A DNA stretch of 64,000 nucleotides from Porodaedalea pini (Eukaryota > Basidiomycota > Agaricomycetes > Hymenochaetales > Hymenochaetaceae), in NCBI GenBank assembly GCA_002794775.1, contig NBAY01000021.1, positions 496,001-560,000 of the forward strand. Direction: 5' to 3'. Positions 22,278-32,654 of this stretch are shown here, piece after piece (position 1 is the stretch's first letter; each line of letters starts with the position of its first letter). Both the position numbers and the translations under genes were made by a program. The notes under the pieces are model-generated. The model did no database searches. It saw only the letters and a list, made by a program, of their open reading frames with translations, and was not told the origin of the DNA.

Positions 22278-22739
22278 TCATCGAAGCCAGTCATAACCCA
22301 GGAATATGTTCAAAGATGCGAGTGACGTCACTGCAAGCACAATCCTTTCCTTATGGTGTCCGATGACTAGTTTGACATCAATGTACTCCTTGATCAAGCT
22401 GGCTTCATTATGTGTGCCATCAGCATTGAGCACTGTGAGGGGACAAATGTAGTGTTTCATTTCCAAGCCATACCATTCAACAAATCCTACATTGATACAT
22501 GACCCAGTGCACCCTGAATCCACAAGGGCATGCGCATCCACCTCTCTCACTTCACCTGCTACGCTGTGGCTGATGTTCAAGAGGAGGTCCAGCTGGTGTC
22601 TGCCAGTTCCCCTCATGAACAGTTGCTTGTACTCACCATTCTCATTCACACCGGTGGGGACTTTGTAATCGGAAAAGTCATTGATGTTGTTTGCATCTAG
22701 GTATTGTACAGACAGTTGACTATATTTTATTGAGTCCAT
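22278..22739 (-). pseudogene. Family B aspartic protease domain
   Basis: Retropepsin-like domain with the active-site context ALVDSGCTGSCIN, where D-S-G is the catalytic triad, followed by hydrophobic strands and LNIFLGYDWL. It lies between gag and reverse transcriptase, as expected for Gypsy pol order. Confidence 0.8.
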
Positions 22740-22780
22740 ATTTGAAGTCTCTTGTTCTTCTCGGTCAGTCGCCCCGATGG

Positions 22781-23642
22781 CTACGCCTGACCACTCACAA
22801 AATCCTGTGAGTTGACGACCTCTTCATCATCGCCTTCCTCCTCCACATAGTCCTCCACCATTGACCTCCAAGTGTCTATGACTTCCTCAAAGGCCAATTC
22901 CTTCATTGCACCCAGCTCATCAGTGAGGAGGTGACACTCACCTGGCACCATCATCTGCAGCATGTGCTGCACGATTGTCTTCCCCTGTGGGCACTTGTCT
23001 TTAAAGTGGCCCAGCTCGCTACAGATCCAGCATGCCCATCATTGTTGTGCCTTATTCATTGAGATGTCCATCGGCTGGCCAGCACCTCCAAAAGTGACAC
23101 CAGTTGCATTGCACTTGTCGATGTGCAGGGCCACAAATGGATGGCAAGCAGGCAGTGCCTACGGTTGTTGTGGGTGTGGAGGGGGTGGCAATGTGCAACC
23201 TCGCTGGATGGCATGGATCTGTTGCTCACCGCGATCAATCTCGATGGCCTTCTTCTTCCAGTCATCGTACGTTGTCAGGACCGGCATTGACCTCAACACC
23301 CCATGAACTACCTTGATGTTCATTGCCCGTTTTAGGCAGTCACAGATGATGACATCATCCATTAGGCCTGTCATTGTGATGACCACATCGAGCTTCTGAA
23401 AGAACTCATCAGCTGTGAGATCCTTCTAGACCTTAGTTCAGAACTCCACCAGTGCTTTCTCCTTTTGGTTCAGATCATTGAACGAGGCATCAAGTCGTTC
23501 CTGGAACCTGGTCTAGCTATCCGTAAAAGTCACAATGCCATTTGTCATGAACTCCTTGATGTAGTTTTGTGCCATATCTATGCATTCTGCCCTTGAGGTA
23601 GGAGAGGGTGAGGTAGATCTTGCTTGACAATGAGAGGTACCT
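22781..23642 (-). pseudogene. Family B gag, C-terminal half
   Basis: Minus-strand coding for IICDCLKRAMNIKVVHGVLR and WKKKAIEIDRGEQQI, matching the intact gag at 60780-60920. A CCHC zinc knuckle (CWICSELGHFKDKCP) is readable near 22985-23040. Stops and small gaps break the frame. The fragment ends at 23642 where the inserted element starts. Confidence 0.8.
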
Positions 23643-23654
23643 CATCAGGAAAAT

Positions 23655-23960
23655 GGCAAACACTATACGCTGTTATATGCTACTATATAGCATTTATAGT
23701 AGTCCATAGTTGTTTAGTAGTTAATGGTAACCCCCCCTCTATATAGTAACCCCCCTCTATATAGGACTATATAGTACCATAGTGCCATAGCTGTATGTTA
23801 CATAGCACAGAATAGGCCATAGAGGGATATCACATAGTGTGGATAGACCACAGTGGTATAGTATTATAGCACGGAATAGCACATAGGGTCAAATAGGCCA
23901 TAATTTCTTAGAGACATATAGTGGCCTATATTGATATAAAGGAGTCTATAGCCAGGTGAC
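23655..23960. repeat. TA-rich subterminal array, left
   Basis: Degenerate repeats of CTATATAG/ACTATA type just inside the left inverted end, including two copies of a CCCCCCTCTATATAG block (~23731 and ~23752). It mirrors a similar array at the right end. Confidence 0.75.
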
Positions 23961-24463
23961 TAGGCAGTGTCATACTTGCTAGGGCATCTCAGGACCTCAC
24001 ACTTTTATTCAGATAGCGGGCAGATTGCAAAAATCATATATTATAGTATATAAATTACATTGGATCTACATCCCTAATGGTGTAGCCATGAACTTCTGAC
24101 TGCCGGCTTATCTCCCTGACTTCCTCATCAGACTTGCTCCATGATGATGCACATTAGATATGCACCTGCATCTGCTATGTTCCTTGATGTTGATGTTACC
24201 CACTTCCTCTTCACACCATGGAAGGACTGCGACACATTTACTGTTGAGTGTCAGCACGACATCGTCCCATTTGGTCACGACATGCAGGCCAGACATGTAC
24301 AGTGCCTTCATGCCCTCGAACATCTCCCATTGGATAGTCTCGAGAAGTGCAGGTATGGCAGTCTCCAGTTCTGTGACTGCTATTAGAGCTTGAACACCTG
24401 GATCATGTCACACAGAGAGTGTTTGCTTCTGGATATCGACTGGACCAAATTCAAGGTGAAGTA

Positions 24464-26852
24464 CAGTCGAACCTCTCATTAAGAATAGGCCTTGGTGGAC
24501 AAGTCAGTCTATTCTTATTGAAAGGTAATTCTTAACGAGAATTCTTACATAAAGTGCACGTGATGTATTCACCCACACGCGTGGGTGCGTACATTCACAT
24601 TATATACAGGCCTGTTAGTAGAGTAAAAATCAAACTATGTTTCTTTATGGAAAAATGAATGAAGGTCAGACTGTCCCATTGATCTATTAATGCATCTCTG
24701 AAGGTCCCGACAAAGTTTCGGAAGGAGGACTCGAGCTTGAGCATACTCTGGCCCTGCTTCACTTTGAAAGAGTTGATCAAGCCAGGTAAGGGCATTACAA
24801 GCCTCAGGAAGGCCCATGAGTGGTTCTGGTTCTGGTCTAGGTGCCTCTAGTTCTGGTATATGCTCACCAGAAGCCTCGCGTGATCTGATTTCCACCTGCT
24901 GAAGAATTTCAGCATCTGTCCATTCTGCTTCTGTAACATCCTCCACATCAATATTGAGAAGCTCCTCAACAGTCAGCACATTTTTTGATGCAATTGCCTG
25001 GACAGAAAGCTCTTTGAGAGCACCCGCTAACTTGGTAACAGCCTGGTTGATCCCAGAATCACCATTAATGGCTGGATCAATCGGTCCTGAAGAAGCGTTA
25101 AGAATTCCAGCATGTTTCCAGCAGTTTGAAACAGTTTCGGACGTGATTTTTGCCCAAGCCTGATTGACCAGGTTCATGGCTTGGAGCTGGTCAATATGAT
25201 AAATATTTTGTTCTCCATTTTCATAGCGATTGAGGGCCAGGAGAATGTATAAGCAGCGATATTGAGCTTTAAATGCACGAATAATTCCGGCATCCATAGG
25301 CTGGATATGGGAAGTCATGTTCGGATCAAGAAAGATGACCTCAATGTTTGTGAGTATCAAGGTATCAAAGGTGTGTGATGGCACATTATCAATTGTAAGA
25401 CAGACATTGCGGTTCTGCTGATGCATTTCCTTATCCAGATCCTCGAGAAACCTTCAAATTTAAGTTAGACATGAAAAATCCATTAATAAATTTTGAAATG
25501 CTCACAGCTCGAAAATAATTCCTGTCATCCATGCCTTCTTATTGTAGTAATACATGAATCCCAAATCGTATCCATCCTTCTTATTGAAGCATCGAGGCCA
25601 CCGGGCATGACTAATAACTAAAGGTTCTCGGATATCTGAACCATCTGCATTTGCAATAAATCCAAGTGATATCCGTGTTTTGTCCCCTTTCCCACCAGAC
25701 ATCTGTTGAGTAGCCAGTGATTTATCTGGTGGCATCCAATAGAACAGTCCAGTTTTGTCAAAATTGTACACATCTCGCCGGCTGAAGGAAGCAAGTTTGA
25801 CCTTGAGCCGCTCCCTTGCTGCTTCAACTGCTTCTGGAGCAACAGAGGCTGCTTCCCCATGGAGTTTATACTCCCGGATTCCATTTCGGTCCTTAAACGA
25901 TGTAACCCAACCATTTGATAGACTTAACTGCTCGTCTAGGGGTATTCTGAGCATATCTGCAAATTGTTTCGCCTTGACCCGAAGTACTTCTGCGGAAATC
26001 TTGAGACAGTCCTGAGATGTCCGGACAAATAAAACAAGCATTTCTTCAAGTTTTGGAAACTTGACAGCTTTGGCAATGCCAGTCCGTTTGTAGAAAATTT
26101 GGTTGGGATTGCTCTCGACAGATGACCAGATTTTTTGTTGTTCATTCCTCCATTTCCAAACCATAGACTGATTGATTTTGGGAAAGCGACTCCTGAAATG
26201 ATCCACAACCTCCTCATCTTTGAGATTTTGGCCTGGACCTGAAATGAATTCGAGAACCTCGAGCTTGTCACCAGTAGTGTAACGGACCTGCTTCTGAACT
26301 GAGTGGATTACTGCTGTGCTGGACCACTTGCCAAGCATTCTAGGCTTTGGAACCCTGCTGGCAGAAGGCTTCTCAGGCACTTCTTTGATGGACACCGTGG
26401 GTGTGGGAGTCACTGGTGTTAGGGTGGGAGTGGCGGCAACGGATGGCAGTGGAGTGTTGAGATCAATGGGAGAAGCACTGCGGGAATGGGTAAAGCTGAT
26501 TTCACTAGCTTCTTTGAGTGATCCATCGGGGTTCTGTGCACAGCCAAGCTCTGTAGACATTCTGAAGTGGGTAGAAGAGTGTCGAGGAGCTGTCTAGCAG
26601 GGAGGAAAATGTGCTACCCTTTTTTTGCGTGTCCTCCATGGCTTGATTATGTGCAACTTTCACGTGACTAAGTGACCTCTCAATAAGAATTTTCCCTTAT
26701 GTTTTCGTACAAATTCTTATTCTTATTTCTTAATGAGAATTTATTCTTATTGGACCCTGAATTTACTGTCTACAGACTTGGTGGACTGAAATTTCTATTC
26801 TTAACCAGAGGAAATTCTTATCGACAGTAATTCTTAATGAGAGGTTCGACTG
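24464..26852 (-). mobile_element. pogo/Tigger-like DNA transposon with perfect TIRs
   Basis: Terminal inverted repeats of 23 bp are identical at 24464-24486 (CAGTCGAACCTCTCATTAAG...) and 26830-26852, flanked on both sides by TA (24462-24463 and 26853-26854), the target duplication expected for Tc1-mariner/pogo elements. Total 2389 bp with one transposase gene. It lies in an intron of the ProRS fragment. Perfect TIRs and an open transposase suggest a recent insertion. Confidence 0.95.
24635..26560 (-). CDS. pogo-like transposase (CENP-B HTH + DDE_1)
   Basis: Cut-and-paste transposase. Exon 1 runs from ATG 26560 to about 25501, and exon 2 from about 25444 to 24635. The 56-nt intron (GTGAGC to GAAG) joins in frame as ELFLEDLDKEM. 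The Ser/Thr/Pro N-terminus is followed by a helix-turn-helix (LKDEEVVDHFRSRFPKIN, MVWKWRNE), a second CENP-B-like HTH (KQFADMLRIP, LSNGWVTSFKDRNGI), and the catalytic core: first Asp in VYNFDKTGLFYWM, second in CLTIDNVPSH, third in HIQPMDAGIIRAFK. The C-terminal tail is acidic (IDVEDVTEAEWTDAE). About 617 residues, a normal length. No frameshift is seen, so it may be functional. Confidence 0.92.
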
Positions 26853-28447
26853 TAGCACACTCTGGACAAAAAGCCATTTGTAAGACCATAGGCAAACCGA
26901 GGAATAAGGAATGATTGTATTTTCACACCTCCTGTTCCCAGTCGTTGAACTTGTAGCCAGGAGTGTAGCCGTCCCGTACATCCGTCTTTACGCAGATACC
27001 GGCTTTCCTGAGCGTCTTCGCGAACTCCTCACAGCGGTCGCATAACTCCTGCTTATTAGTGCGTGCGGTGATACCGCAGGGGACAATGATTGCTTGGACG
27101 CTCACAACGCGTGGTGGGACAACAAGACCCTGGTTGTCGCCGTGAATCATAACTGTGACCCCGACCGTGCGCGTGCTTGGGCCCCACGAGTTCTGCCATA
27201 CAAATAATTTGCCACCGTTCGGACCCATACCCTACGGATCGTCCGGGTCTTCGACCACAATGTTGAACATCTCTGGCCGTGAGAAGTTTTGGCCAAGGCA
27301 GTGCGACATCGCAGCTTGGATGCCACGACCAGTCGTCGAAATGAAGCCTTCCACGGGAGTCATGTACAGTCCACCGGGAACTTCTTCTCGGACTTGAAGC
27401 CGGGGATGACGGCTACAGCAATTAGTTCCTCGTACACGCGACGATATAAGTCGAGAACTTCCCATACATCAGCATCGGCCTCCTTTGTGAGATGCGCACT
27501 GTGGCCTTCCTGCCATAGGAATTCGCGCATACGGAGGAACGGCTGGGGCTCTTGAACTCCCAGTGCACAACACGGTTCCACTGATTGAGCTTGAGGGATA
27601 GATCCCAGTAGTTCTTGTTCCATTAGGCGTAGTAGGGAGGGCTCCTCAAGCTCGGAGCTCCCTCTGAAGACGCATGTCAATAGTTAGAAATCAAAAAATT
27701 TGGACACCTACGCCCTGTCACCCATGCCACTTCCGGAGAAAGGCCCTCAAAGTGGTCCTTATCATGCTCGAGCACCTTTTTAGACACGAACATTGGGAAG
27801 GAGCCATTCTCTACACTCACCCATCTCCTTGATTCTTGCGTTGAAACGTTCTGTTGGCAAGTAAGAACCTGAGATGCAGATGCTTGTTTCTTCAAAATAT
27901 CTTGTACTGCTTCCCAGATGCAGTGCGGCCAGTGATTAGGACTGTAGCATCCACTAACGCTGTAGTAGTCTAACGTATCGGCCTTGATCAACGCCTATGA
28001 TACTTATCAGCACTAAGTGAGGGATTACAGAACAATCAGCACACGTACATATACGATACCGGAAAGTCGACCTCTTTCTTCATGCCAAACGCAGCCTTCA
28101 CGGCGCCGTCGTTTCTCCCTTCCTCTTTCGCTGCCTTTTCCTGGACGGCAATTGCAGACGTGGGCGGAGCAGGCGCCGCAGCATCGGTCTTGAGTATCGC
28201 GAAGTCTACTTCGTGAAGCTTGACCTCCCCGGTTCCGAGAACGCGCAAGTATGAGGCAATGTCGGTTCCAGAGAGGAAGACAGTAGGATGGGAGGCGAGC
28301 GCACGTACGGCGAAGGGGGAAGTCGATGATGCGAGCGATGCACCAAGGACCGTGACAACCTTCGGGAACGTGTTGGCATCGGTTTCGACGAGGAAGCGAC
28401 ATTCGCAGTGAACGGGTTGGTAGCAGCGCTGAGACGGTGCACACTCA

Positions 28448-30335
28448 AACAGGTCGGCAACGAGTTTGGCATCAGCCTCCTTCGCCTCAATAGCAGACAT
28501 GACAAGCTTCTCGACGAGAAGATGTCGATGCTCCGAGGGAAGTGCAGAGAAATACTCTTCTGCATCGTTGAGATCGCGGATAGCGAAGAATTCCTTGCGG
28601 TCCTGGTCAGTCTTCTTTTCCGCTTGCTCCTTCGACATCGACAATTTTCCCATAGTCCTTCTCGAGAATCTCGCCCTCCTCGCCCTCCTCGCTGTCGTGA
28701 GTCTCAGCGGGACTATTCTCCGACTTCTCCTGCATGGGCTTCGAACGCGGAAGCAGGTTGGGTCTGGGACGCTGAGCAGGTTGGGCAGGTTCCACAGGTG
28801 CGTTGTGGGTCAAGTCGACGCTCGTTATACGGCTTGACGGGCGACTTGGACGAGACGAGGATGCAGTAGGAGCATCATTAGCGGCCTCAGCGGCCTGCAG
28901 CATTTGGAACATGTTCGTGTTCGAACTTGTCCTTGAAAGGCTCGCACTGTCGCGCTTGCTGTCTCCCTTCTTCGTGAAGACGCTAGTCGGTCCGAAGTTC
29001 ATGGTGCCACTGCCCTTTTGAATCTTGCCAGAGTTCGTCAGATCACCCGCCTCGCTTGCAGGCCTCGAAGGACCAGAAGAGACAGCCCATCCGTCGGGAC
29101 CGACTTGAACATTTCCGTCACGATCATGGCCACGGCGTGAACCACCGCGAGACATGGCTGGCCGCGCTAAGTTATGTTGCTCCTGTTGTGCCTTCTCTTT
29201 CGCGGCCTGTATATTGGTAAGCACAAGTGAAATCGAGTAACAAAGCAAGAGCACGTACCGCCTCATGAATCAGAGCGATTGTCGACGGAGCAGCGACCAA
29301 GTTGCGGGTAGTCCATTTCCTTTCCCGCAATTCAATCTCATCCTGTCCAAGAAAGTCAGCTCAACGAAAGGCTAGGAAACAGAGGGTACACACTTGTAAC
29401 ATGAACTGCATACAAGACGACACGTTGCTGCTCTTCGCAAGCTCCTTCATCCGATTGAAATAGACGTCCATGTGTCCGCGAGCCTTAGAGGTATCGAGCG
29501 CCTGACCAACAGTTGCCAGGAGTTTACATAAACTTTCGATCTCTTCCTCCTCGGGATTGTCGACGTTGCTGAGCCAGCTTCTTGATACATGATACGTTCC
29601 GTGAGCATCTGAAGCTTGAAGAGCTCCTCGATGAACTTGACGAGTCCGAGATCTTGACGCTTGGCCTTCTAAGCAGCGTAGTATTCGTCCGAGTACAGCG
29701 CACTCTCGCCAGCCCCCTTGTTTTCTTCCTTTTCGTTGGCATCTTTAACAGCCTGATCCTCTGTCGCCTTCACGAGAGCCGCTGACGCCATCGACTCCTT
29801 CTGCGTCCAGCCGCGCTCGAAGTCTTCCTGACAGCGATTCAGAAGGTACTTACGGAAAAGCAGACCACCTGTAATCGGCTTGCCCTCAGCATTGCGGATA
29901 CCATCATCCTGCACGTTCAGACTAAGCTGCTCCTTCATCTTACGGCACAAGCGAGCATATATCTCACTCCAGGCCGCCTCATCCGTCGTCTTCTCGAACA
30001 CAAGCCGAATGACCTGAATGAATGTACGCCCATCCTTCTCACTCTCACTCTTGTTTGCCCACGCAATGATCTGGTTTGAGATGGACTCAAACTTCTCCAT
30101 AGTGAGCTTGTTGAGTAGCAAACGGACTTTCTTGTCCACAATCTCGGGTGAGTCTGTGTCAATTGAGGCCCCACGCCTGGACGTGCTGCCCGCGACCCAG
30201 CGGTTCGCAGACTGCTCGAGCGGCGCGACGTGTTCGAAGGAGGAAGCAGCATTCGCGTTGAACTGATTGGCAGAAGCGCTGATACGATTCGACTCGTCGC
30301 GTGTTGAGCCGCCACGTTTCCTACGCGTACCCTGG
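28448..30335 (-). pseudogene. eIF4G fragment, copy 1 (MIF4G to MA3)
   Basis: Piece of the translation initiation scaffold eIF4G, which binds eIF4A, eIF3 and the cap-binding protein. The MIF4G domain begins near 30160 ([60 protein letters not shown]) and runs to DEYYAA, where a TAG stop lies at about 29669. Frameshifted exons continue ([14 protein letters not shown]), then the Ser/Arg linker (MSRGGSRRGHDR, GPDGWAVSSGPSRPA, TSSNTNMFQMLQAAEAA) and the MA3 start (QDRKEFFAIRDLNDAEEYFS, EAKEADAKLVADLF). There it changes in frame into ProRS at about 28447. About 90% identical by eye to copy 2 at 45873-47512. Confidence 0.88.
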
Positions 30336-30416
30336 AAAATAGAAAGCATCAAGTAGGAGGGAAGCAGAAATTGGCGTACTCGAAGACAGCGCCAACAAGC
30401 CCTTTCCTTTCCTCTT

Positions 30417-31190
30417 CTAGCTTTCCGTCTTCTTGTGGCATTGCTCGTCTGTAAACTTGCGCCCCGTCTTCATCTTGCCGTGGTTATGCTTGCGCATCGT
30501 GACCTCGCACCGCACGCGTGTCTCGACACGCGAGGGATCTTGCACAGTGTCGCTGGTGAGCACTTTCACGAGATTTGCGAGGCGGGCTTTAGACGCGTCA
30601 GACGGAGCAAGACCCATGCGGATGCGGTCGCGCTTGTCCTGCAGTTCTGCCTGCCGGCGCTGCTTGCACATCTTCTGCCCCCTCTTCGTAGCATGAGCGG
30701 CTTAATCTTCGTCTTGTCCTTGTCACCCAGAGCAGGGATCTTTCTTTATGGGGTGTTGCACGTAGATGTTGATGGGAGGGTCGAGAGTATGGATATTGAG
30801 CACAGATATTGAGCGCGGATATTCCTGCATTCAAATCATCATAGGAGTCGTTGGGTAAAAAGGCCATGCTTCACCACTCTGCATTCGGAGCTTCACGCTA
30901 CATATAGAGTCAGAACACATTAATCGGCCATATACAATGACTCACCCTGATGATGTTTTCCGCGGTCTGAAACTCTCCATTCAGACCCGTCTTCCGAGCG
31001 CCTTCGGCAGTACACTGCTTGAGAGTTTCCAGCTGAGCGTCCTGACGATATTGGTTTGCAATCTGGACATACTTCCCCTTCTGGTTGAAGCGGAACAATC
31101 GTAAAGTATTCTCCTTCAAACGCGCCAGGGTGCTGTTGTTGATGGATGGTGTGAAGTTGGCAGTGGCACGCGTCAAAACCAACACACATG
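30417..31190 (-). pseudogene. Prp3 (U4/U6 snRNP) fragment
   Basis: Part of spliceosomal Prp3. Readable pieces: FRFNQKGKYVQIANQYRQDA (~31080), ARKTGLNGEFQTAENIIR (~30960), LPNDSYDDLNAGI (~30840), then QAELQDKRDRIRMGLAPSD (~30630), LVKVLTSDTVQDPSRVETRV and a frameshifted ERKGLVGAVFE-like end near 30390. It lacks the N-terminus and the C-terminal DUF1115 part. A GTACGC donor after the last Prp3 codons and the TTCCAG acceptor of the following eIF4G exon could form a hybrid intron, but the phase does not match. Confidence 0.8.
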
Positions 31191-31198
31191 TGATTGAG

Positions 31199-31251
31199 TT
31201 CCCACGCTCTTGCTCGTGGATGGGTGCCCATCACGAGCAAGAGCGTGGGAA
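31199..31251. repeat. Hairpin, 20-bp perfect arms
   Basis: TTCCCACGCTCTTGCTCGTG at 31199-31218 and its reverse complement at 31232-31251. The loop (GATGGGTGCCCAT) can pair further. It lies directly upstream of the Prp3 fragment. 31252-31600 holds no gene I can support. Confidence 0.92.
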
Positions 31252-31609
31252 ATTGGACTTGTGAATTTTGACACGTCTCACTGACTCTCAGATCCTTACT
31301 CACCACCTTTTACTTTTACCTGCTTAATGAACCCTTCATCCCAAAGTATTTCTTCAACAACCAGTGTGTCAAGATTGGTGGGTAAAAGAGTAGAGACAAT
31401 TTAAATCTATATAAATAAATGTTTGAATGAGAGTGATGCAATGCAAACTTAGGACTCCGATATAGGAGCAGCCAAAAACAGTCTCCCAACCATAGTTATT
31501 ATTTTATGCAGATATTTTTCTGATTGATGAATACAGATTCTAAATGCTAGTCATCATTCAGTTGTGACCTCAGGTTGGTTTTCATCCATGGTGCTATTAA
31601 GATTCTCTA

Positions 31610-31898
31610 CTCAGCATCATTGTAGATATATACTATATAATACTATTACAGCTATATCTGACTATGGATACTATTAACTATATGCTATATAACTTTATGT
31701 GACTATGGATACTATAAGCTATATTCTATATAACTTTATGTGACTATGAGAGCCTATGAACTATATAAAACTATCTGAACTATATAAAACTATATGCACT
31801 ATATAGCACTCTATCACTATGTACCATGCAACTATACATGACTATGACATGCTATAAACTGCTATGTGACTATATTGCACTATAACTAACTATGGGTT
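31610..31898. repeat. TA-rich subterminal array, right
   Basis: Degenerate repeats of a TATATAACTTTATGTGACTATGG-like unit (seen at ~31688 and ~31726) and many ACTATA words, just inside the right inverted end. Counterpart of the array at 23655. Confidence 0.75.
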
Positions 31899-31916
31899 TT
31901 TGCCATTTTCCTGATG

Positions 31917-32150
31917 CTTGTAGGATTCGCCGAGATGAAGAGAGTGACTTCGCGTCTGAAGTCAAGGTAATCATTGCCACCAGCAAATTTGCATGGTCAG
32001 GCAATGTCTATAACAGGAGCCAGGGCATTGCCTTGACCCACCAGGACATTAGCTGCTTGATGGGTGAAGGCCGCTGTGACTATCACTGTGATCTGTTCCT
32101 GTTGCTGTTATGTGAATCCCATTGACATTGCTGGTATGGGCATGCACAAC
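31917..32150 (-). pseudogene. Family B gag, N-terminal part
   Basis: The reverse complement matches the start of the intact gag at 60270-60480 (the QQQQRELAALIAAAF and FAGGDNYLNFKREVLLF coding region) with many substitutions. It abuts the inserted element at 31916. Confidence 0.75.
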
Positions 32151-32654
32151 AGGCATTGAGGGGGAGTCGGTGGAGATGAGTCTCTATGGGGCATATGATA
32201 GCCTCCTGGTTCACAAGGTAGGATGACTGACAATGTCAAAACTGTTGGGGATGATGGTGCACAAGGAGGTCGAGGTGCCCACCAAACTTGCTGACCTTGT
32301 TTGTTAGTCGAATACCAAGAGTGTCTAGTGTCACTCCACCAGATGTTATAGGTGACGTGTTCCCTATCATCTGCTACATATGAGCATCATTCATCATCAT
32401 AATGGGAAGAAGAGAGGAGAGCCCATTCTTGTTCCTCTGTTAGATCTATCTTGACTAAGACAGTGGGGGAACAGGGATAGGCTGAGCATTTGGATGAATG
32501 TTATGCTGATGGAGAATGGGTTCATCAGTAAATTTGATGATTAAATGGAAGGAGGTGACTGAGATAGTAATTGACAATGATGTCGATGACTATACACGAT
32601 GTGATACCCACATCCAAGTCAGATGGCTCCTCCACCAAAGGGGGATATGGAGAG

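Follow-up and report, generated by a model that had tools for sequence, protein, structure and literature searches.

How did pieces of three housekeeping genes come to lie side by side inside a retrotransposon gene of the basidiomycete Porodaedalea pini? The locus is an 8274-bp block, positions 23643-31916 of the 64,000 nucleotides analysed here (assembly GCA_002794775.1, contig NBAY01000021.1, positions 496,001 to 560,000, forward strand), a stretch that is called the window below. The block is a single transposon insertion within a Gypsy-type gag gene and carries pieces of the genes for Prp3, eIF4G and ProRS. A preliminary description, made from the letters of the window, had proposed that a non-autonomous element takes up pieces of genes in this fungus, and the ends shared among copies and the independent insertions of the same chimera uphold that proposal. 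We suggest, at a probability of about 0.82, that the element is a non-autonomous gene-capturing (Pack-TYPE) cut-and-paste transposon of PlavakaB-like kind, which holds pieces of three host genes and has been amplified as a chimera.

The insertion and its ends

The features that define the insertion are the following.

22278..23642, minus strand: Gypsy-type gag/protease (insertion host), downstream half
23641..23642, no strand: target-site duplication CT, left copy
23643..23660, plus strand: left terminal inverted repeat, CATCAGGAAAATGGCAAA
23661..23972, no strand: left subterminal TATAG-rich array, putative transposase binding region (role inferred)
31597..31898, no strand: right subterminal TATAG-rich array, its last ~290 bp 79-80% like the Plavaka-coding right end of C40/C135
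31899..31916, minus strand: right terminal inverted repeat
31917..31918, no strand: target-site duplication CT, right copy
31917..32386, minus strand: Gypsy-type gag (insertion host), upstream half

When the two flanks are fused with one CT, 13 alignments of 67-80% identity to related gag stretches span the junction. They come from L013, L029, L030, L033, L034, L036 (two), L039, L048, L051, L055, L056 and the right part of the window, that is from 12 loci or window parts and 11 distinct places (L013 and L034 are the same place); the L048 alignment has a 3-base gap beside the junction. Because the joined flanks align across the junction with one CT, the block came in as one insertion and duplicated 2 bp of target. 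This bears out the claim that the gag gene reads continuously once the block is removed. The statement that there was no clear target duplication does not stand, as CT lies directly outside both termini, and the search for an empty site that had been proposed found uninserted homologous gag positions in L029 and L030 that hold one CT.

The arms 23643-23663 and 31896-31916 are inverted with 95% identity over 21 nt, and the outermost 18 are perfect, in agreement with the boundaries and the 18-bp ends first given. At up to three mismatches the 18-mer has two sites in the window, the termini of the element; shuffled versions gave a chance mean of 0.09, with two sites in 1 of 100 shuffles as well. 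The TA-rich arrays reported within each end are also real: CTATA/TATAG occurs 4.8 times per 100 bp in the left terminal 330 bp and 5.0 times in the right terminal 320 bp, versus 0.06 in the interior of the element (counted without the nested transposon described below). A hairpin with perfect 20-nt arms is found at 31199-31251, in the stretch that separates the Prp3 piece from the right array.

The gene pieces

All three gene pieces lie on the minus strand, in one orientation as originally described.

24108..24407, minus strand: ProRS C-terminal piece, PF09180 below the curated cut-off, beyond the nested transposon
26870..28035, minus strand: ProRS piece, part of the catalytic core and the anticodon-binding domain (Pfam, PDB sequence match)
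28036..30333, minus strand: eIF4G piece, MIF4G domain and downstream region (Pfam, protein alignment)
29258-29207, minus strand: intron-like GT..AG stretch in the eIF4G piece
30430..31117, minus strand: Prp3 piece, PRP3 domain at about positions 11-220 (Pfam)
30945-30898, minus strand: intron-like GT..AG stretch in the Prp3 piece

Pfam matches above the cut-off were obtained for PRP3 (PF08572), MIF4G (PF02854) and HGTP_anticodon (PF03129); the ProRS matches to PF00587 and PF09180 fall below the Pfam cut-offs, and the ProRS piece is also identified by a PDB sequence match with a best E value of 2.8e-31. An eIF4G-like protein of an Agaricomycete (P0002, from Phellopilus) matches the eIF4G piece at 70% in an alignment of 257 residues, and a PDB sequence search with the piece 28036-28809 gave no match. 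The reading frames are broken: the eIF4G piece shifts frame at ~29580 and stops are found in many PRP3 copies. The introns said to have been kept are present as GT..AG intron-like stretches in the Prp3 and eIF4G pieces. Since such stretches are retained, the one in Prp3 inside a single 84% alignment to the candidate donor on C113, capture probably took place at the level of DNA.

The window copy owes its 8.3-kb length to a second transposon nested in it.

24464..26852, minus strand: nested pogo/Tc5-like transposon with HTH_Tnp_Tc5 and DDE_1 domains
24462-24463 and 26853-26854: TA duplication of the nested transposon

The nested transposon is 2.39 kb long and has perfect inverted arms of 25 bp that include the TA duplication. 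Without it the element measures 5.88 kb, and the five other short copies, from all of which it is absent, measure 5.75-5.93 kb. Its DDE_1 transposase was considered as the mover of the captured-gene element and was excluded, as it has its own inverted arms and TA duplication and is missing from those five copies. Thus the earlier statement that the block has no transposase of its own holds for the element proper, which encodes none, and fails for the block as a whole, which holds the nested one. Within 24462-26854 there are two long transposase frames of 363 and 272 amino acids with a possible short intron between them, and the nested transposon may be intact.

A family of copies

The search for paired ends elsewhere, which had been proposed as a check, covered 53.3 Mb of genome, and the numbers of copies given are minimum values. 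There are 29 exact matches to the end 18-mer and 23 to a sister version that differs in two bases; at up to two mismatches 29 forward and 28 reverse matches were found, versus 3 and 1 for a backwards control. The 43 end loci around these matches are of two types, 14 left (CACTATA next) and 29 right (mostly AACYCATA or AATCCCATA next). The left 378 bp of the element reaches the terminus at 18 or more genome places; for the right 657 bp at least 25 rows do so and at least 11 more stop within about 41 bases. Twelve pairs of facing ends were found, these being the cases with two facing ends among the stretches examined, and many other ends are unpaired. Matching 2-bp duplications flank 11 of the 12 pairs (10 of 11 when C24 and C71 are counted once), where chance would give 1/16 for each.

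Two types of cargo share these ends. Type A, with Prp3, eIF4G and ProRS, is complete in the window and at C45, C24=C71, C135 and C25, and is partly seen at C31, C79 and a second C45 place; the Prp3 piece is present in nine element places, two of which (C24/C71) are one duplicated insertion. Type B (C19, C61, C69, C138) agrees with it in both end types and in ProRS but carries other gene scraps, namely C2 (just above the cut-off) and fungal protein kinase pieces, which were named in L026 and recognized in the others by DNA likeness. ProRS adjoins the left end in both types.

Six short type A copies have the same cargo at 90.8-99.9% pairwise identity, and the window copy is 92.5-97.7% identical to the other five. 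C24 and C71 are one insertion within a duplicated stretch, with both flanks shared (94% and 99% over 200 bp), whereas the flanks of the other 14 of 15 pairs are unrelated (21-30% over 200 bp). The six copies therefore represent five independent sites of the same chimera, as is expected of a Pack-TYPE element. It had been considered that 23643 and 31916 might be unrelated breakpoints or the block a single-copy one; both breakpoints recur in other copies, and the block is multi-copy. Segmental duplication or an assembly artefact in place of transposition is very improbable, and is excluded for the five sites compared: the shared flanks of C24/C71 and C40/C135 (98.6% of a 1.5-kb flank in the latter) do show duplicated stretches in the assembly, but those 14 pairs lie in unrelated surroundings, and for the window copy there is an empty site. 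The end flanks of C24/C71, C40/C135 and C30/C53 are near-identical (97-99.6% over 1.5 kb), which shows duplicated stretches or unmerged haplotypes in the assembly.

Longer pairs were examined as possible autonomous elements or simple insertions. The C138 copy (18.85 kb) and the C31 pair (25.7 kb) contain nested Gypsy-type elements, and both were excluded as autonomous elements, as Gypsy-type polyprotein frames (labelled by eye) lie inside the non-autonomous types; for C31 this covers all but 6.7 kb of the pair. The C23 pair (38 kb) was excluded as a simple insertion, as it has two left-type ends and no matching duplication. At C23 a block of ~28 kb (L031 1072-9991, about C23:441571-469783), of which the outer parts were read, interrupts a family copy and carries RPB1 and Prp8 pieces and a match to the eIF4G N-terminal domain at C23:463989. 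The adjoining L032 84-9520 (C23:469783-479219) is a palindromic, type-B-like copy that, together with C23:440997, has left-type ends on both sides. On C25 a long Hsp70 fragment (L040 6849-8180, an open frame of 444 amino acids) begins ~1.3 kb in from a left-type end; the likeness of L040 to the family ends after 102 bp, and the fragment may lie outside the element.

The candidate mover

A Plavaka transposase is the likely mover of the element, because three DUF6830 loci adjoin Plavaka transposase matches and are oriented toward right ends of this type. The Plavaka transposase domain PF18759 gave 64 match rows in the genome and DUF6830 gave only three matches.

C25:199389, minus strand: DUF6830, with PF18759 at C25:200445-201432 and a right end at C25:174035, 25.4 kb away
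C135:54438, minus strand: DUF6830, with PF18759 at C135:61737-61865 and a right end at C135:53340, 1.1 kb away
C77:50541, minus strand: DUF6830, with PF18759 at C77:51498-53913 and a right end at C77:36896, 13.6 kb away

All three DUF6830 matches are on the same strand as the adjoining PF18759. At C135 (L062) the DUF6830 frame lies ~1.1 kb inside the right end, and this end is 79-80% like that of the window over about 290 bp. C40, a near-duplicate of C135, has PF18759 at C40:286313-287306, and the density of CTATA/TATAG at its end (L054) is 6.1 per 100 bp over the first 330 bp, falling to 0.6 beyond. We take DUF6830 to be part of Plavaka proteins in general; here the two are linked by three co-locations. 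These loci provide a candidate for an autonomous partner in the genome. Three other PF18759 loci (C3:1855504, C17:26031, C87:8121) lie 3.6-4.2 kb inside the sister end CATCAGGAAAAAGG, all reading away from it, and because of them CATCAGG-ended Plavaka elements seem to occur in this genome.

Some further observations concern Plavaka copies. An RNase P p30 fragment lies just inside the right end of L061, and L048, at another site, is 99.7% identical there (inner 1.1-1.5 kb); the contigs of L048 and L061 also hold Plavaka and DUF6830 matches, so the fragment may be carried by an element that is possibly autonomous. At C36:380170-381176, C7:496396-497402 and C3:1263729-1264735 the Plavaka transposase domains span two adjoining frames free of stops and may belong to active families.

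The origin of the cargo

The best donor candidate for Prp3, at one locus, is C113:57348-58025, which is 84% identical over 688 bp. Its PRP3 domain (10-220) scores 259 bits, versus at most 109 elsewhere, when two stops are read through. Altogether the Prp3 piece has 14 match rows: ten in the nine family places (C31 in two rows), one at C113, and three extra matches of 49-50 bp that are also near right ends of this type. For ProRS, C57:63013-64225 (86% over the full query length) is the best candidate among places that have no ends of this type nearby. PF12152 is found in two open frames on C33, of 894 and 911 amino acids, which are probable eIF4G genes and candidate donors.

It has been suggested above that a Plavaka transposase moves the element; the enzyme would bind the TATAG-rich subterminal arrays and act in trans. 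Host DNA may have been copied in by template switching when the gap left by excision was repaired, and this route is slightly favoured because of the internal duplications in L028, the C23 palindrome and the shuffled blocks at C12. Somewhat less probable is that two neighbouring copies moved together and took along the gene that lay between them, a model of capture that has been proposed for Pack-TYPE elements (PMC8903248).

Alternatives to the proposed gene capture by a Plavaka-like element

Several points weigh against the reading proposed here. A domain search of the block found no transposase encoded by the captured-gene element itself, and the same kind of search found no DUF6830 match at C40. 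The DUF6830 loci are tied to the element type by the right end, the one that was read, and at C25 and C77 that end lies 25.4 and 13.6 kb from DUF6830, a distance of which the first 1.5 kb was read. Among the 14 PF18759 rows that score above 160 bits, 12 lack an end of the window's type within 30 kb, so other families account for most of the Plavaka copies in this genome. In the one facing pair without a matching duplication, C23, both ends are left-type ends of a palindromic copy. Finally, the eIF4G piece may derive from another amplified element and not straight from a gene, because 31 of 40 scored eIF4G places stop at the Prp3 junction.

Those 40 were scored among 287 candidate places; 9 run past the Prp3 junction, and the 31 that stop do so at query positions 2294-2298.

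Junction-stopping eIF4G places: C12, C14, C15, C17, C18, C19, C21, C66, C90, C114 and others

They are 91-94% like the eIF4G piece of the window. Because they lie outside the 12 end pairs, the eIF4G piece is also carried by a second amplified repeat, which at C12 holds shuffled ProRS blocks as well. Cargo may have been exchanged between repeat families.

The alternative that survives best is that the cargo is a mosaic, made by nesting or recombination of gene-fragment repeats that were already amplified. This overlaps with the preferred reading, and as a full account of the cargo it is unlikely. ProRS and eIF4G pieces do occur at many places without ends of this type, and blocks of both are shuffled at the C12 locus; the Prp3 piece, however, is limited to this family, the one candidate donor and the three short matches near right ends, and types A and B share ProRS beside the left end. 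A broader and more doubtful idea is that of genome-wide exon shuffling, in which a ProRS-eIF4G cassette would move among two or more amplified families, one of which lacks these ends, with Prp3, C2, kinase and RNase P p30 pieces added. The carriers would then gain from their likeness to essential genes, since the host would pay a price for silencing them by homology.

It is also improbable that the pieces were captured by an element of a different cut-and-paste superfamily (hAT, MULE, PIF/Harbinger/ISL2EU). MULEs duplicate 9-11 bp of target, and Pack-MULE is excluded by the 2-bp duplication found here. In what is accessible of the sources, a hAT carries histone H3 in fungi (PMC6710886) and some Harbinger relatives make 2-bp duplications (PMC12730594), but hAT elements duplicate 8 bp (5-8 bp in variants; PMC12730594), which excludes hAT. 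The terminal CATCA..TGATG motif fits PlavakaB, and the Plavaka/DUF6830 loci share the right end.

Helitrons lack inverted ends and target duplications. A Helitron or other rolling-circle element is excluded for practical purposes by the perfect inverted ends and the 2-bp duplication in 11 of 12 end pairs, although Helitrons mobilise gene fragments and those of basidiomycetes carry extra genes, according to the accessible text of one study (PMC4289320).

Age and decay

The window copy is 97.7% identical to that at C45, and the independent copies C71 and C135 are 99.4% identical. The window and C45 differ by 129 transitions and 8 transversions. With two outgroup copies in agreement, transitions have occurred at 14.1% of CpG sites versus 1.9% of other C/G sites and 0.34% of A/T sites. 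The CpG excess is also seen in two other copy pairs (1.8 vs 0.4 and 0.3; 32.7 vs 3.7 and 2.4). Later decay of the cargo by CpG-biased transitions, as would be expected from CpG methylation and deamination, fits this pattern.

Comparison with known systems

In plants, TIR (terminal inverted repeat) transposons that shuffle gene pieces are a documented source of new gene structures. Elements that carry gene pieces are well known there and little described in fungi. If the interpretation offered here is correct, a multi-copy, three-gene Plavaka-like chimera extends this shuffling to fungi and to another transposon lineage, and the 53-Mb genome allows donors, intermediates and copies to be lined up. 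It also carries a warning for annotation, as a transposon may be the carrier of what looks, in genomes of this kind, like a Prp3, eIF4G, ProRS, kinase or RNase P 'gene'.

The superfamily, left unassigned in the preliminary description, can now be proposed as PlavakaB-like from the ends and the 2-bp duplication; the label non-autonomous stands. In a 2025 survey of fungal transposons, PlavakaB, known from Agaricomycotina, has 5'-CATCA..TGATG-3' ends and duplications of 2 or 3 bp, and belongs to the CMCT group, related to CACTA/EnSpm (PMC12730594). The present element has the same ends and a 2-bp duplication, and a related right end adjoins PF18759/DUF6830 coding sequence. It differs in that the published gene-bearing families carry a TET/JBP dioxygenase (PMC12730594), while here no transposase and broken pieces of three housekeeping genes are found. 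The term 'gene fragment' is absent from the survey, and 'non-autonomous' occurs once, about TET/JBP genes. No report that joins Plavaka with gene fragments was found in open-licence full texts, and one may exist elsewhere; for CACTA gene-fragment capture in basidiomycetes, those texts gave only papers that are unrelated by title and abstract.

The Pack-TYPE elements of plants, one kind of which is CACTA, are likewise non-autonomous TIR elements and carry coding DNA that stems from a single host locus or from several, and the element here likewise has target duplications and host-gene pieces inside; they are described from plants, in a main text with no occurrence of 'fung' (PMC8903248), whereas the host here is a fungus and the lineage Plavaka. 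The hAT with histone H3 in Dothideomycetes is similar in that a fungal DNA transposon took up a housekeeping gene and multiplied it, with transition mutations following (PMC6710886). That case involves a single gene captured as a transcript by another superfamily, in contrast to three genes taken as DNA with intron-like stretches and a CpG-biased decay. The Helitrons of Pleurotus ostreatus are also basidiomycete DNA transposons with extra genes, but are rolling-circle elements in the part of that study available (PMC4289320). Plant Pack-TYPE elements, a fungal hAT with histone H3 and PlavakaB with TET/JBP are therefore known systems, and what appears to be new in Porodaedalea pini is a three-gene chimera on a Plavaka-like element.

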